Assembly (NCBI GenBank): GCA_003151115.1
Contig: PLWS01000003.1
Span: 187,350 to 251,349 of the forward strand
DNA from: Vulcanimicrobiota bacterium
GTDB taxonomy: Bacteria > Vulcanimicrobiota > Vulcanimicrobiia > Vulcanimicrobiales > Vulcanimicrobiaceae
Direction of reading: 5' to 3'
Length of the DNA stretch: 64,000 nucleotides
The notes under the pieces are model-generated. The model had not been told where the DNA came from. It searched no databases and worked only from the letters and a program-made list of their open reading frames with translations. Positions 4,665 through 62,153 of this stretch are shown piece after piece. The stretch's first letter is position 1, and each line of letters begins with the position of its first letter. Position numbers and translations under genes: made by a program.

Positions 4665-5195
4665 CTAGTCCGGCGGCGCGCGGGGCGCCGCGATCGGCTC
4701 GTCAACGAACTCGGCTTTCACGGCGCGCGTATTCGGCCGGCGCACGAGCAGCGCGTCGACGCCGGCAAACCGCCCGACCGGCAGAACGATACAAAAGAAC
4801 GATAGCGCGAGCGCTACGCCGTTGAGCGTACCGACTCCAGACCAGTGGAACTCGCCCGCTGCCGCCAGATAGTTCAGCGCCAAGAAACAGCCCACGAGTC
4901 CGCCAAGCGGCGTAAGGAACCCAAGCAAGAGACTGATGCCTGTGAGAACTTCTCCCAGACGCACGAGCTCCGCAAACAGGCCGACGTTCGGCGTAACCGT
5001 GTTTATCAGAAAGTCATGATAGAAGCCCGTACTGGTTTGCGTCGCGTGGGCGAGCATTTGACCCATGTAACCGTTGGGCGGCATGAACATCGCCGGATTC
5101 AAAAACTTCGGAATGCCGCGTACGAGCCAAAACGCTCCCGCGTAGAGCCGGAAAATTAGCAACCAGCCTGAAACCGCCGGACGCGCAACGATCAT
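4665..5195 (-). CDS. DoxX family membrane protein
   Basis: 176 residues with four hydrophobic segments and the DoxX/SURF4-like pattern: an N-terminal R-L-Y-x-G-x-F-W-L-x-x-G segment, G-E-x-x-x-G-x-x-L-L-L-G-F-L-T-P in the middle, and a last helix near residues 120-145. DoxX proteins are small integral membrane proteins linked to redox and quinone-related functions in several bacteria; the precise role here is unknown. ATG 5195 overlaps the stop of the upstream glycosyltransferase (ATGA), which fixes the start and argues for coupled translation. The longer open frame upstream is antisense-like overlap with that gene. It is the last gene of a long minus-strand operon, followed by the tRNA-Ser. 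Confidence 0.85.
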   Translation of the reverse strand: MIVARPAVSGWLLIFRLYAGAFWLVRGIPKFLNPAMFMPPNGYMGQMLAHATQTSTGFYHDFLINTVTPNVGLFAELVRLGEVLTGISLLLGFLTPLGGLVGCFLALNYLAAAGEFHWSGVGTLNGVALALSFFCIVLPVGRFAGVDALLVRRPNTRAVKAEFVDEPIAAPRAPPD

Positions 5196-6331
5196 GCGAT
5201 GGCCTCCTGCGGACCTTCTGCGGCGAGCGCCCGAATGGCGCCTGCCACCTCGCGCGCCGCGTCGGGTTTTGCGAGCGCGCGCATCGCGGATCGCATATCG
5301 CTGCGCACGGATTCCGAAGACAACAACCCCGAGATGGCGCGTGGCAGATCGTGCGCGCGCTTCACGCGGATCGCCGCCCGCCCGTCGACGAGATAGCGCG
5401 TATTGCGTTCTTCTTGCCCGGGCAGCGGCTTGAACAACACCATCGGAACCTCCGCCGCGAGCGCCTCGGCCGACGTCAGGCCGCCGGGTTTGGTGATCAG
5501 CAGATCGGCAGCGTGCATATACTCGTCGACGTTTCCGACAAAACCCATTACGCGCACGGGATAGCGCACGCCATGCGCGGCCTCGAGCACGCGGTCGCCG
5601 GAGCGGCTGCTGCGTCCGACGATCGCCACGGCGCAAATCGGCAGCTCCAGCGCGTCGAGTTCCCGCATCATCGTCGAAAGCGGGCCGATGCCAAGCCCGC
5701 CGCCCATCATCAGCACGATCGATCGGTCACGGGGCAGATCGAGTTTCCCGCGCAGCGCCGGAACGTCGGGCGGGAGCTTTCCGAACGACGCGCCCACCGG
5801 AATGCCCGAAACGATCACGCGCTCCGGACGAATGCCGCGGGCGATCATCGTCGCCCGCATCTCCGGTGTGGCGACGGCATAACGCTCGATGTTCTCGTGC
5901 ATCCAAAAACTGTGCACGGCAAAGTCCGTCACGACGCCCAGGACGGGCGGAGCGTCGGCGAATTGTTTTTTATATTCCGCCATAACGCCGCAAGGAAATG
6001 CGTGCGTGCAGATGACGACGTCCGGCTTGTACTCATGCATCATGCCGCGCAGATTTCCCGCCGTAAATTGGTGGATCCATGTGCGGAACGGACCGACTTC
6101 AGTGGCCTGCTCGGCCCGATGGTAAAGGAAACGGTACATTTGCGGAAGCGTTTTGACCATCCCGATGTAGCCGTCGGAGACGACGCGTGAAACGACCGAT
6201 GCCGCGTACTTGTACGAGTCGACGACCGCCGACTCGAACGCGGGATCCTCGCGCTCCAGTTCGGCGCGCAGCGCCGAAGCCGCGGCCATATGGCCGACGC
6301 CGACGTTAGCCGACAGAAAGAGCGCGCGGAT
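5192..6331 (-). CDS. MGDG synthase / MurG-like glycosyltransferase, apparent ATC start
   Basis: A GT28-type glycosyltransferase related to MGDG synthase and diacylglycerol glucosyltransferase (UgtP). These transfer a sugar from UDP-sugar to diacylglycerol at the membrane. Seen: the N-terminal loop V-G-V-G-H, a middle segment P-D-V-V-I-C-T-H-A-F-P, the C-terminal sugar-nucleotide region L-I-T-K-P-G-G-L-T-S-A-E-A-L-A and P-x-P-G-Q-E-E-R-N. Oddity: the first ATG (6289) lies directly after V-G-V-G-H. No ATG, GTG or TTG exists between it and the in-frame TGA at 6362-6364. Starting at ATC 6331 gives a family-like N-terminus (M)-R-A-L-F-L-S-A-N-V-G-V-G-H. AAGGAG lies 10 nt upstream, and the ATC forms a TAATC junction with the preceding stop, the same geometry as TAATG junctions elsewhere. 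379 aa from ATC. Confidence 0.85.
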   Translation of the reverse strand: MRALFLSANVGVGHMAAASALRAELEREDPAFESAVVDSYKYAASVVSRVVSDGYIGMVKTLPQMYRFLYHRAEQATEVGPFRTWIHQFTAGNLRGMMHEYKPDVVICTHAFPCGVMAEYKKQFADAPPVLGVVTDFAVHSFWMHENIERYAVATPEMRATMIARGIRPERVIVSGIPVGASFGKLPPDVPALRGKLDLPRDRSIVLMMGGGLGIGPLSTMMRELDALELPICAVAIVGRSSRSGDRVLEAAHGVRYPVRVMGFVGNVDEYMHAADLLITKPGGLTSAEALAAEVPMVLFKPLPGQEERNTRYLVDGRAAIRVKRAHDLPRAISGLLSSESVRSDMRSAMRALAKPDAAREVAGAIRALAAEGPQEAIA

Positions 6332-6618
6332 TACTCGGCGGCTCCTTGGCCGCCCGATTCTTCAGCGAGCACGAAGAAGTCATCTAGAATCTCTTGAGCG
6401 AGCGCTTCGTCTTTTAGCAGATTTCCCTGCGCGTCGGTAACGACGAACTCGTCCTGCGTCTCGCAGTACAGCACGGCAAACGCGTTATGCTCTTCATCTT
6501 CCACCAGGCCGACGACTTCGAACTCGAGCTCCTTATCCTCGCCGGTCGTCTTAATGACGAGAACGTCTTTCAGTTCGAGATCGCGTTGCGCTTGGCCGGA
6601 TTCGCCGTCGGTTGACAT
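6331..6618 (-). CDS. DUF1292 family protein (YrzB-like)
   Basis: 95 residues, acidic. The core E-L-E-F-E-V-V-G-L-V-E-D-E-E-H-N-A-F-A and the segment Y-C-E-T-Q-D-E match DUF1292 (UPF0473), a small conserved protein of unknown biochemical role. In monoderm genomes it is usually next to ruvX/yrrK and mltG, which is the case here: it lies 9 bp after mltG. AGGAG precedes the ATG. Its TAA stop overlaps by one base with the putative ATC start of the next gene. Confidence 0.85.
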   Translation of the reverse strand: MSTDGESGQAQRDLELKDVLVIKTTGEDKELEFEVVGLVEDEEHNAFAVLYCETQDEFVVTDAQGNLLKDEALAQEILDDFFVLAEESGGQGAAE

Positions 6619-6627
6619 AGCGGTCTC

Positions 6628-7617
6628 CTATTTCAAGTATTTGGCGACGTTCGCATTTTGCTCGGCTAAAGTCTTTGCAAACGCGTGATGTCCGTGGCCC
6701 TTGTAAACGTAGTACAGAAACTCCGAGGGTCGCGGATTGAGTGCGGCGACCAGGGAAGGGCGTCCCGGATTGGCGATGGGTGTCGGCGGCAACCCTTGGT
6801 GCAGGTAGCTATTATACGGCGAATCGATACGTAAATCACTGTACGTGATGACGGTTTGGTGCGTGGGCAGCGCATATTCGATCGTCGCGTCCACCTCCAG
6901 CGGCATACCCAACCGCAGGCGGTTGTAATAGACGCCGGCCATGAGCGGGCGCTCGTCATCGGCCTTCGCCTCGCGTTCGATCAGCGAAGCCAGCGTCACG
7001 ACCTGCGGCACGGTCAATCCGCGCGCACGCGCTTTTCGGGCGGCATCCGCCGGCAGCTCTTTGCGGAATTGCGCGCTCATGATCGCTTCGACCGTAGCGG
7101 GCGAAGCCCCAAGCGGCATGAGGTACGTGTCGGGAAAGAGATAGCCTTCCATGTTGGCTGTGCGAAAGCCGTCGACGACGATGGTGTCGCGCAAGAAGGC
7201 CGCCGCGTATGATTGCGCGTCGCCGAAGCCTTCGGTCTCCAATTGCGCGGCGATTTGCTTGGCAGTATATCCTTCGGGGATCGTGATCCATTTGGCGATC
7301 TGCGCGCCGCCGGTTTGCAAACGGCGCAGAATCTCGGCTTCGGTTTGGTGCGGGGTGAAACGGAACTCTCCGGCGCGAGCCTGGGTGTCGGCGTGCATCG
7401 CCTTGGCATACAAGCGAAAGATCTGCGTGTTGCCGATGATCCCTGTGGCGTGCAGCTGGGCGGCGATATCCGAAAACGTAGAGCCTTGCGGAATCACCAC
7501 GCCTGTGGTCGAGGCCGGCCGCGAACGATCGCCGTAAATTCCGTAACCAATCCACGCCGCGACCACAAGAATAGCGAGCACGGCCAACAGCGTGAGAGAC
7601 CGGATGGCGCGCATCAT
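6628..7617 (-). CDS. mltG: Endolytic murein transglycosylase MltG (YceG-like)
   Basis: 329 residues, usual length. One N-terminal membrane anchor (about residues 6-26), a LysM-like stretch (V-I-P-Q-G-S-T-F-S-D-I-A-A-Q-L, about 41-55), then the YceG catalytic domain. The motif A-S-L-I-E-R-E-A with Glu near 214, followed by V-Y-Y-N-R-L-R-L-G-M-P-L, matches the active site that cuts nascent glycan strands and releases them from the membrane. ATG 7617 overlaps the ruvX stop (ATGA). The pairing with ruvX and DUF1292 is a conserved arrangement. Confidence 0.95.
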   Translation of the reverse strand: MMRAIRSLTLLAVLAILVVAAWIGYGIYGDRSRPASTTGVVIPQGSTFSDIAAQLHATGIIGNTQIFRLYAKAMHADTQARAGEFRFTPHQTEAEILRRLQTGGAQIAKWITIPEGYTAKQIAAQLETEGFGDAQSYAAAFLRDTIVVDGFRTANMEGYLFPDTYLMPLGASPATVEAIMSAQFRKELPADAARKARARGLTVPQVVTLASLIEREAKADDERPLMAGVYYNRLRLGMPLEVDATIEYALPTHQTVITYSDLRIDSPYNSYLHQGLPPTPIANPGRPSLVAALNPRPSEFLYYVYKGHGHHAFAKTLAEQNANVAKYLK

Positions 7618-11402: not shown

Positions 11403-11844
11403 ACGGCCACGGCATGGAAATGACGCCGGCGAGCCGGCGCTCTTCAGCCTCCATCACGGCACGTTCGACGGCTTCATGATGATCGTGGCCGAGCAGATGG
11501 AGCAGCCCGTGAATCAGCAGGCGGTTAACCTCGCTCTGCAGCGGCGCGTCGTATGCGGCGGCCTGGCGCCGCGCAGTATCGAGACTGATCGCGATATCGC
11601 CCAAGAACTGTTCTTCCTCAGCCTGCCCTGAGCCGGCTCGAAGGGCCGGGAAGCTCAAAACGTCGGTCGCTTTGTCTTTTCCACGGTGCGTCCGGTTGAG
11701 CTTGCGGACGTGCGCGTCGTCGGTTAAAAGCAGTGAAAGCCCGCTCGCGGGCCGCGCCGTCGCGCGCACGAGTTTCTGCGCCGTGCTTTTCAAGCGGCGC
11801 AGATCGATGTCAGGATCGCGGACGCCGGCGCGCAGATCGATCAC
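11395..11844 (-). CDS. ybeY: Endoribonuclease YbeY
   Basis: 149 residues. The zinc motif H-G-L-L-H-L-L-G-H-D-H (His112, His116, His122) and T-D-V-L-S-F-P are diagnostic. YbeY acts in 16S rRNA 3'-end maturation and ribosome quality control. GTG 11844 overlaps the phoH stop (GTGA), and phoH-ybeY-dgkA is a widely conserved order. Oddity: the loop between S-F-P and L-G-D-I is expanded by a segment (about residues 67-75) encoded by a copy of a dispersed 25-26 bp repeat that is also intergenic at 16374-16399. Confidence 0.95.
   Translation of the reverse strand: MIDLRAGVRDPDIDLRRLKSTAQKLVRATARPASGLSLLLTDDAHVRKLNRTHRGKDKATDVLSFPALRAGSGQAEEEQFLGDIAISLDTARRQAAAYDAPLQSEVNRLLIHGLLHLLGHDHHEAVERAVMEAEERRLAGVISMPWPYD
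11620..11645 (-). repeat. REP-like repeat copy inside ybeY
   Basis: On the minus strand this reads CCCTTCGA, a 5-nt spacer GCCGG, then CTCAGGGCAGGCT. The copy at 16374-16398 has the same outer blocks with a 4-nt spacer CAAG. It is read through in frame as part of a YbeY surface loop. Confidence 0.6.
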
Positions 11845-12797
11845 CGCGGTCCGCGATCGGCCGCATACGCACGGATGATCTCGACAACCAGCGGATGGCG
11901 CACGACGTCGGATTCCCCGAGCTCGACGATGCCGATATCCGGCACGCCGGCGAAACGCCGGGGTGCTTCGAGTAGCCCGCTCTGCGCGCCGCCCGGCAGA
12001 TCGATCTGCGTCACGTCTCCGTTGACGATCATCTTCGATCCCGCTCCCAGACGCGTCAAAAACATTTTGAGTTGGTCGCGCGTTGCGTTCTGCGCTTCGT
12101 CGAGGATGACGAATGCTTCGGAGAGCGTCCGGCCGCGCATATACGCCAGCGGCGCGACTTCAATGACGCCGCGCTCGATATAGCGCGAGACCAGCGGGTC
12201 GTCCATCAATTCCGCGAGCGAGTCGTAAAGCGGACGCAAGTATGGATCCACCTTCTCTTTCAAGTCGCCGGGCAGAAATCCGAGCTTCTCGCCGGCTTCA
12301 ACTGCCGGGCGCGAAAGAATCACGCGCGCGACCTGGCGCGCGCGCAACGCGCGCACGGCCATCACGACGGCCAAAAATGTTTTTCCCGTTCCGGCCGGAC
12401 CGATGCCGAACGTCAAGGTGTTGCGCTCGATTGAATCGACGAATGCGCGCTGGCCGCCCGTCTTGGGTCTGATCTCGCGTCCGCGGTGCGAACGAAATAA
12501 TGTTTCGGGGAGTGCCGTCGTTTCGCCGCCGCGACGGACGTCCGACGTTGCGAGCGCAACGTCGTCGGGCGTGAGGTGCACGCCGCGCACCGCCGCATCG
12601 AGCATCCGCTTTACGACGTCGTAAGCTTGCTCGACGGCGGTCTTTTCGCCGTGAACAACTAGGCTATGGCCGTCGACCCGCAGCGAAACCGCGAGTGCGT
12701 CCTCCAAGGCCGAGAGATTCTGATCGAATTTTCCGAACAACCGGAATTGATCGGTGAGTTCGCTTAGGTCGACGGTTCGTTCGGTCGTTGACTCCAG
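11841..12797 (-). CDS. phoH: PhoH-like ATPase, probable CTG start
   Basis: A PhoH/YbeZ-type P-loop ATPase with Walker A G-P-A-G-T-G-K-T, Walker B region V-I-L-D-E-A-Q-N and an N-terminal KH-like region (V-D-G-H-S-L-V-V-H-G). It partners YbeY in RNA processing. The only ATG/GTG/TTG candidate near the family start is TTG 12740, but the frame upstream keeps the conserved N-terminus (T-V-D-L-S-E-L-T-D-Q-F-R-L-F-G-K-F). A CTG at 12795-12797 has AGGGAG 8 nt upstream. From CTG the protein is 318 aa, the family's usual length; from TTG 299 aa. It overlaps the small ORF before it by 34 bp and ybeY by GTGA. Confidence 0.9.
   Translation of the reverse strand: MESTTERTVDLSELTDQFRLFGKFDQNLSALEDALAVSLRVDGHSLVVHGEKTAVEQAYDVVKRMLDAAVRGVHLTPDDVALATSDVRRGGETTALPETLFRSHRGREIRPKTGGQRAFVDSIERNTLTFGIGPAGTGKTFLAVVMAVRALRARQVARVILSRPAVEAGEKLGFLPGDLKEKVDPYLRPLYDSLAELMDDPLVSRYIERGVIEVAPLAYMRGRTLSEAFVILDEAQNATRDQLKMFLTRLGAGSKMIVNGDVTQIDLPGGAQSGLLEAPRRFAGVPDIGIVELGESDVVRHPLVVEIIRAYAADRGPR

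Positions 12798-62152: not shown

Positions 62153-62153
<1 letters not shown>
61599..62153 (-). CDS. frr: Ribosome recycling factor
   Basis: 184 residues, standard length. R-T-G-R-A-T-P-A-L-L-D-R-I-H-V-E-A-Y-G and the C-terminal D-R-F-I-K-E-I-D-Q-L-V-T-A-K-E-K-E-I are RRF marks. With EF-G it splits post-termination ribosomes. ATG 62153 overlaps the pyrH stop (TAATG). Confidence 0.97.

Follow-up and report, generated by a model that had tools for sequence, protein, structure and literature searches.

The gene considered here raises a plain question: at which codon does its translation begin? It lies on the minus strand of the window, by which is meant the whole 64,000-nucleotide stretch of DNA analysed, and encodes a glycosyltransferase. 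The sequence-only reading had pointed out that no ATG, GTG or TTG occurs between an in-frame TGA and the first in-frame ATG, and had proposed a genuine ATC start that forms TAATC with the preceding stop codon. Direct reading of the glycosyltransferase frame agrees that the three codons are absent between TGA 6364-6362 and ATG 6289, at the coordinates it had given. The features around the junction are as follows:

5192 to 6331, minus strand: glycosyltransferase gene of the MGDG_synth/GT28 type, 379 amino acids from ATC 6331, stop codon TGA 5194-5192
6362 to 6364, minus strand: in-frame TGA that closes the glycosyltransferase frame upstream, read directly
6329 to 6331, minus strand: ATC, the putative start, which shares 1 nt with the stop codon before it (TAATC, 6333-6329)
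6332 to 6334, minus strand: rival start codon GTA, with a 4-nt overlap (GTAA)
6342 to 6347, minus strand: Shine-Dalgarno sequence AAGGAG, 10 nt before ATC and 7 nt before GTA, duplex energy -7.7 kcal/mol
6287 to 6289, minus strand: codon 15, the earliest ATG in frame, dismissed as a start and lying after the invariant G11, G13 and H14
6331 to 6618, minus strand: upstream gene, an open reading frame of 95 amino acids with an ATG start and stop codon TAA 6333-6331, belonging to a family of 37
6628 to 7617, minus strand: mltG (YceG-like; PF02618, E 4.2e-86), a member of the same gene row on its upstream side

Beyond the TGA the frame is open from 6361 to 5192, and its first codons are AGA ATC GGG CGG CCA AGG AGC CGC CGA GTA ATC CGC GCG CTC TTT CTG TCG GCT AAC GTC GGC GTC GGC CAT ATG(6289). 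The absence of a start codon over ten codons is not improbable by itself, and it is its conservation across relatives that lifts it above chance. The other marks noted earlier were also found in place: AAGGAG is read at 6347-6342, TAA 6333-6331 shares its A with ATC 6331-6329, and the TAATG junctions cited for comparison are present at 62153 (frr), 39789 (amidase) and 37497 (cinA). The 95-amino-acid gene precedes the glycosyltransferase gene in many relatives; its product has no Pfam match.

The nature of the product indicates how much of the N-terminus is needed. It belongs to PF06925 (MGDG_synth; E 4.8e-34, 118.3 bits against a gathering score of 25), and its PDB matches include a processive diacylglycerol glucosyltransferase (9wde, E 1.7e-43) and MGD1 (4wyi, E 3.9e-26). 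UgtP and MGD1 share with it the same fold, the G-x-G-H loop and the GT28 C-terminal domain. Unlike UgtP equivalogs, however, it falls below the NCBIfam equivalog cut-off for UgtP (diglucosyl diacylglycerol synthase), with 239.8 of 500 bits. The earlier description as an MGDG-synthase homologue is right as to family; the name is a family-level one and does not imply a substrate. In the AlphaFold2 model (mean pLDDT 88.8), beta strand 1 spans residues 2-7, and the helix that follows starts at residue 12. G11, G13 and H14 of the G-x-G-H loop are invariant among 26 relatives, down to 34% identity, and H14 aligns with the histidine of the GGGH stretch of MGD1 in the PDB match. Since H155 of plant MGD1 has been described as the catalytic base (PMC7419546), the alignment suggests that H14 is its counterpart.

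A start at ATG 6289 would give a protein lacking the first 14 residues. This is the first canonical codon and the one that a start-codon-limited gene finder would pick, but such a protein would lose strand 1 and the G-x-G-H loop, and with the loop the histidine that aligns with MGD1's catalytic base, and only 10 of 67 species carry ATG there. ATG 6289 was rejected on these grounds, low conservation and loss of strand 1 and the invariant loop, and we attach very little credence to it. As the earlier reading had observed of the glycine loop, the invariant G11, G13 and H14 precede codon 15; because they do, and because ATG 6289 is little conserved, the start must sit at the junction.

Three observations on homologues may be added. 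In distant class members (the family f3 homologues of G045, G047, G050, G051 and L087), the match is interrupted by a single in-frame TAG or TGA. In L082-L085 and L090, a CCTGAGC(T/C)TGTCGAAGG-like repeat lies directly 5' of the glycosyltransferase gene and may provide a TTG or ATG start. The homologue of Pelotomaculum propionicicum (L109) is without a nearby canonical start, and the ATA in ATAAGCAAGCTA is a candidate.

The start column was tabulated in 67 species, of which 41 form one clade. None of the six congeners has a canonical start in the glycosyltransferase gene; the column reads ATC, ATT or GTT, the last in two congeners that both have TAG as the stop codon (GTAGTT). Over all 67 species it is ATT, ATC or ATA (ATH) in 31 and ATG in five. 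Within the 41-species clade, 29 have ATH with no canonical start nearby, two have a canonical ATG or GTG one codon ahead of ATH, and five, in three separate lineages (L041/L046, L057, L067/L070), have ATG exactly at the column; the few others have GTT, GCC or CTG. A minimum of 14 changes among the three start classes is required on the glycosyltransferase gene tree. Outside this clade, GTG and TTG starts are found, together with further species lacking a canonical start. CTG occurs in CTGA in L044, L050 and L058, outside the clade, and ATA in ATAA in L048, inside it, and L077, outside it. In L073, TAATC lies six codons further upstream, having shifted together with the stop codon.

On comparative grounds, the position is confirmed by the conservation of AUH where more distant relatives carry AUG. 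The sequence-only reading had asked whether ATG in relatives would betray an assembly error, with C called for G at 6329. The congeners, from independent assemblies, never have ATG, GTG or TTG, and a canonical start is absent from most of the family as well, so that a sequencing or assembly error at 6329 was excluded by the congeners and merits practically no weight. The codon itself also departs from ordinary usage: ATT is over-represented at the start column, with ATT and ATC in a ratio of 19 : 12 compared with 105 : 326 for isoleucine codons elsewhere in these genes (Fisher p 3e-5, a value that ignores phylogeny).

In all 31 ATH species the upstream stop codon lies no more than 4 nt from ATH. 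Its position relative to ATH is -2 in 27 of them (TAATH or TGATH), -3 in two, -4 in one and +1 in one, and the minor junction forms are a stop codon followed directly by ATH (two species), TAAG-ATT (one) and ATAA (one). Since the phase to the upstream stop codon varies among these species, it is the junction that AUH follows, rather than the reading phase. The same variation bears on the idea that a programmed -1 frameshift or stop readthrough fuses the 95-amino-acid protein to the glycosyltransferase. As such a fusion would have it, no stop codon interrupts the frame across the junction and most species have the -1 phase, but with phases of -1, 0 and +1 several species would need readthrough rather than a shift. 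Moreover, no shared slippery run is seen, some relatives carry ATG in that column, and the peak in Shine-Dalgarno energy described below is typical of an initiation site. Fusion is disfavoured chiefly by the changing phase and is considered highly improbable.

A more serious competitor is the codon immediately before ATC. A start at GTA 6334, with ATC as the second codon, would make the junction a common NTGA overlap in which TGA has changed to TAA. Its 7-nt distance from AAGGAG speaks for it, as does the presence of GTA-ATC in a total of five ATH species, that of the window included; GTA, ATA or CTA precedes the start column in congeners, and at the same two columns L030 and L076 have GTG-ATC and L071 has ATG-ATT. 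The pth gene of the same genus, in addition, has GTA in GTAA without a nearby ATH. Against this, codon -1 is mixed in the 27 species with the stop codon at -2 (CTA 12, CTG 6, GTA 5, and one each of ATA, TTA, ATG and GTG), whereas in pth, where NTA at NTAA or NTAG seems to serve as the start, it is exclusively GTA or ATA. In L019, L040 and L068, the codon before ATH is the stop codon itself and ATH is the first codon. Given the mixed codon -1, the stop codon before ATH in three species and the limitation of NTA to GTA or ATA in pth, ATC is favoured, and a GTA start in the window seems unlikely. It may be that the two GTAGTT congeners have moved their start to GTA.

The ribosome binding site is consistent with initiation at the column. 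The mean Shine-Dalgarno duplex energy is -8.5 kcal/mol at the start column and about -4 to +0.5 at the other 10-nt steps within 90 nt on either side, and no shuffle of 200 was as strong as the peak. Species with ATG at the column have a mean of -4.9 (n=5) and the ATG-started genes of the window genome a mean of -3.6 (n=87), of which only eight reach the -7.7 kcal/mol of the window glycosyltransferase. A weak start codon is thus accompanied by a strong Shine-Dalgarno sequence, a pairing that has been reported in S. aureus too (PMC13009471). Part of the purine content is otherwise explained, because the stretch also encodes the Glu/Gly-rich end of the upstream 95-amino-acid protein.

Taken together, the sequence comparisons suggest, with a probability of about 0.74, that translation of the glycosyltransferase gene begins at a conserved non-canonical codon, AUC 6331, which shares its A with the upstream UAA. 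The locus combines the marks of an AUH start (no canonical start before the conserved N-terminus, AUH where relatives have AUG, a strong and well-spaced Shine-Dalgarno sequence) with that of termination-reinitiation, the overlap of stop and start codons (TAATC, 6333-6329). Two points sit less easily with it: the two GTAGTT congeners retain GTA without ATH, and six species have CTG-ATH, in which CTG may be the start.

How initiation at AUC might proceed can be sketched from what is established here, namely the sequence, its conservation and position, the peak in Shine-Dalgarno energy and the requirement for the N-terminal residues. A ribosome finishing the 95-amino-acid protein would terminate at UAA, pairing of AAGGAG with the 16S tail would retain it at the junction, and it would re-initiate with fMet-tRNA at AUC across the -1 nt overlap, giving a product that presumably begins fMet-Arg-Ala-Leu-Phe-Leu-Ser. 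The weak AUC probably holds enzyme output low and ties it to translation of the upstream gene, and by analogy with infC and ccpN the start may be sensitive to IF3. The literature describes coupling at -1 nt junctions, and also that coupling is inhibited when IF3 is overexpressed (PMC12548453, PMC6728339).

Other genes of the phylum to which the genome belongs, Candidatus Eremiobacterota, show the same habit, and so the ATC start proposed in the sequence-only reading, although supported, has GTA 6334 as a second candidate and is not isolated. One example lies in the window:

11841 to 12797, minus strand: phoH, proposed CTG start 12797-12795 (PF02562, E 7.6e-89)

This phoH has no ATG, GTG or TTG in its 13 open codons upstream and none before the conserved N-terminus, and GAGGGAG precedes CTG 12797 (Shine-Dalgarno energy -7.7), so that, as far as its sequence indicates, CTG 12797 is the likely start. 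A canonical start is lacking at 16 of the 40 phoH loci of relatives, and most of those flagged have CTG. For recO, the start column is ATC, ATT or CTG in L040, L053, L057, L062, L064 and L095 and ATG or GTG in others. All 27 full-length copies of infC seen (L123-L149) have ATA, ATC or ATT (ATA in the family, ATC in the order, ATT in the class) and no ATG, GTG or TTG nearby. In pth (peptidyl-tRNA hydrolase, L232-L261), ATG, GTG and TTG are missing in 22 of 29 Eremiobacterota, which have GTA or ATA overlapping the upstream stop codon, or CTG; the corresponding figure for controls is 1/31, made up of 0/12 from other phyla and 1/19 from Planctomycetota, where ATG lies two codons on. Neighbouring genes used as controls rarely lack a canonical start: CorC-like 0/54, ruvX 0/34, cdd 1/29 and mltG 4/60, the last apparently false.

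Two further cases are confined to the window's genus, where all members seen have ACG in lysS and ATT in leuB, while relatives outside the genus have ATG, GTG or TTG. In lysS (lysyl-tRNA synthetase) a conserved ACG, the apparent start, lies just after the greA stop codon (L303, L306, L308, L311, L312, L314, L318), and in leuB a conserved ATT AGC ACG overlaps the upstream stop codon in ATTAG (L264, L270, L271, L275, L280, L281, L284). No Shine-Dalgarno sequence was found for the leuB ATT, which makes leuB the least certain of the set. A partial genome comparison (G000, 1.07 Mb, with G018, 0.8 Mb) gave 189 comparable gene pairs, 24 of them flagged mechanically in G000; most of the 24 are boundary or shadow-frame artefacts, and 5-9 are perhaps real by eye. 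The balance tips slightly towards a lineage-wide relaxation of start choice in Candidatus Eremiobacterota, in which several percent of genes, housekeeping genes like pth and lysS among them, would start at AUU, AUC, AUA, CUG, GUA or ACG, in most cases on or close to the preceding stop codon, so that reinitiating ribosomes would need little of the start codon. 'Several percent' is an estimate only, coming as it does from a partial comparison in which few flagged pairs are real by eye.

One precedent is infC, which in bacteria encodes IF3, starts at AUU, AUC or AUA and is autoregulated. An infC gene with an AUH start is present in the same genomes, and the glycosyltransferase gene shares with it the conserved AUH start, the Shine-Dalgarno sequence and, probably, weak initiation. 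However, a glycosyltransferase is not an initiation factor, so autoregulation is inapplicable, and its proposed start overlaps a stop codon. Conserved AUU and AUA starts with long Shine-Dalgarno sequences have been shown experimentally in S. aureus, and cvfC1 (AUU) and ccpN (AUA) of that species, like pcnB (AUU) of E. coli, give about 10% of AUG output in reporters (PMC13009471). These three also combine a conserved non-canonical start with an extended Shine-Dalgarno sequence, but they are not described as stop-overlap junctions, they are single genes in contrast to the many in one phylum here, and their starts were shown by experiment where that of the glycosyltransferase is read from sequence. 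Termination-reinitiation at TAATG or TGATG (PMC6728339, PMC12548453) involves the same -1 nt overlap and a Shine-Dalgarno sequence inside the upstream gene, but the junctions described have canonical start codons in place of AUC.

In the literature searched, no study of Eremiobacterota start codons was found. Little has been documented of natural AUC starts, and well-studied non-canonical initiation concerns single genes. Such starts are known singly, in infC, pcnB, cvfC1 and ccpN; their breadth in one phylum and the stop-overlap context appear to be new. Dozens of species that keep AUU or AUC, switching to AUG and back at one column, with similar starts in pth, phoH, recO and infC, provide a natural experiment on the strictness of start selection, especially after termination. 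In this uncultured phylum, many N-termini are likely to be miscalled where only ATG, GTG and TTG are allowed as starts, and if start choice is indeed relaxed, standard gene finders would truncate or misplace such proteins.

The initiation machinery was inspected for a source of this tolerance. The 16S rRNA has a normal anti-Shine-Dalgarno tail and unchanged G1338 and A1339, IF3 shows no anomaly when aligned with solved IF3, and in the relative G018 the initiator tRNA has a CAU anticodon and G-C pairs in the anticodon stem; no alteration was found in any of the three, and no source of the phylum's start-codon tolerance is seen in these parts, which look ordinary. The 16S rRNA shows an A-to-C difference at position 1324, this number and those of G1338 and A1339 following the E. 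coli numbering as judged from a fragment of that sequence. Among the tRNAs, ARAGORN placed a selenocysteine tRNA (tca) at C1:57430-57523 of G000 (L114).
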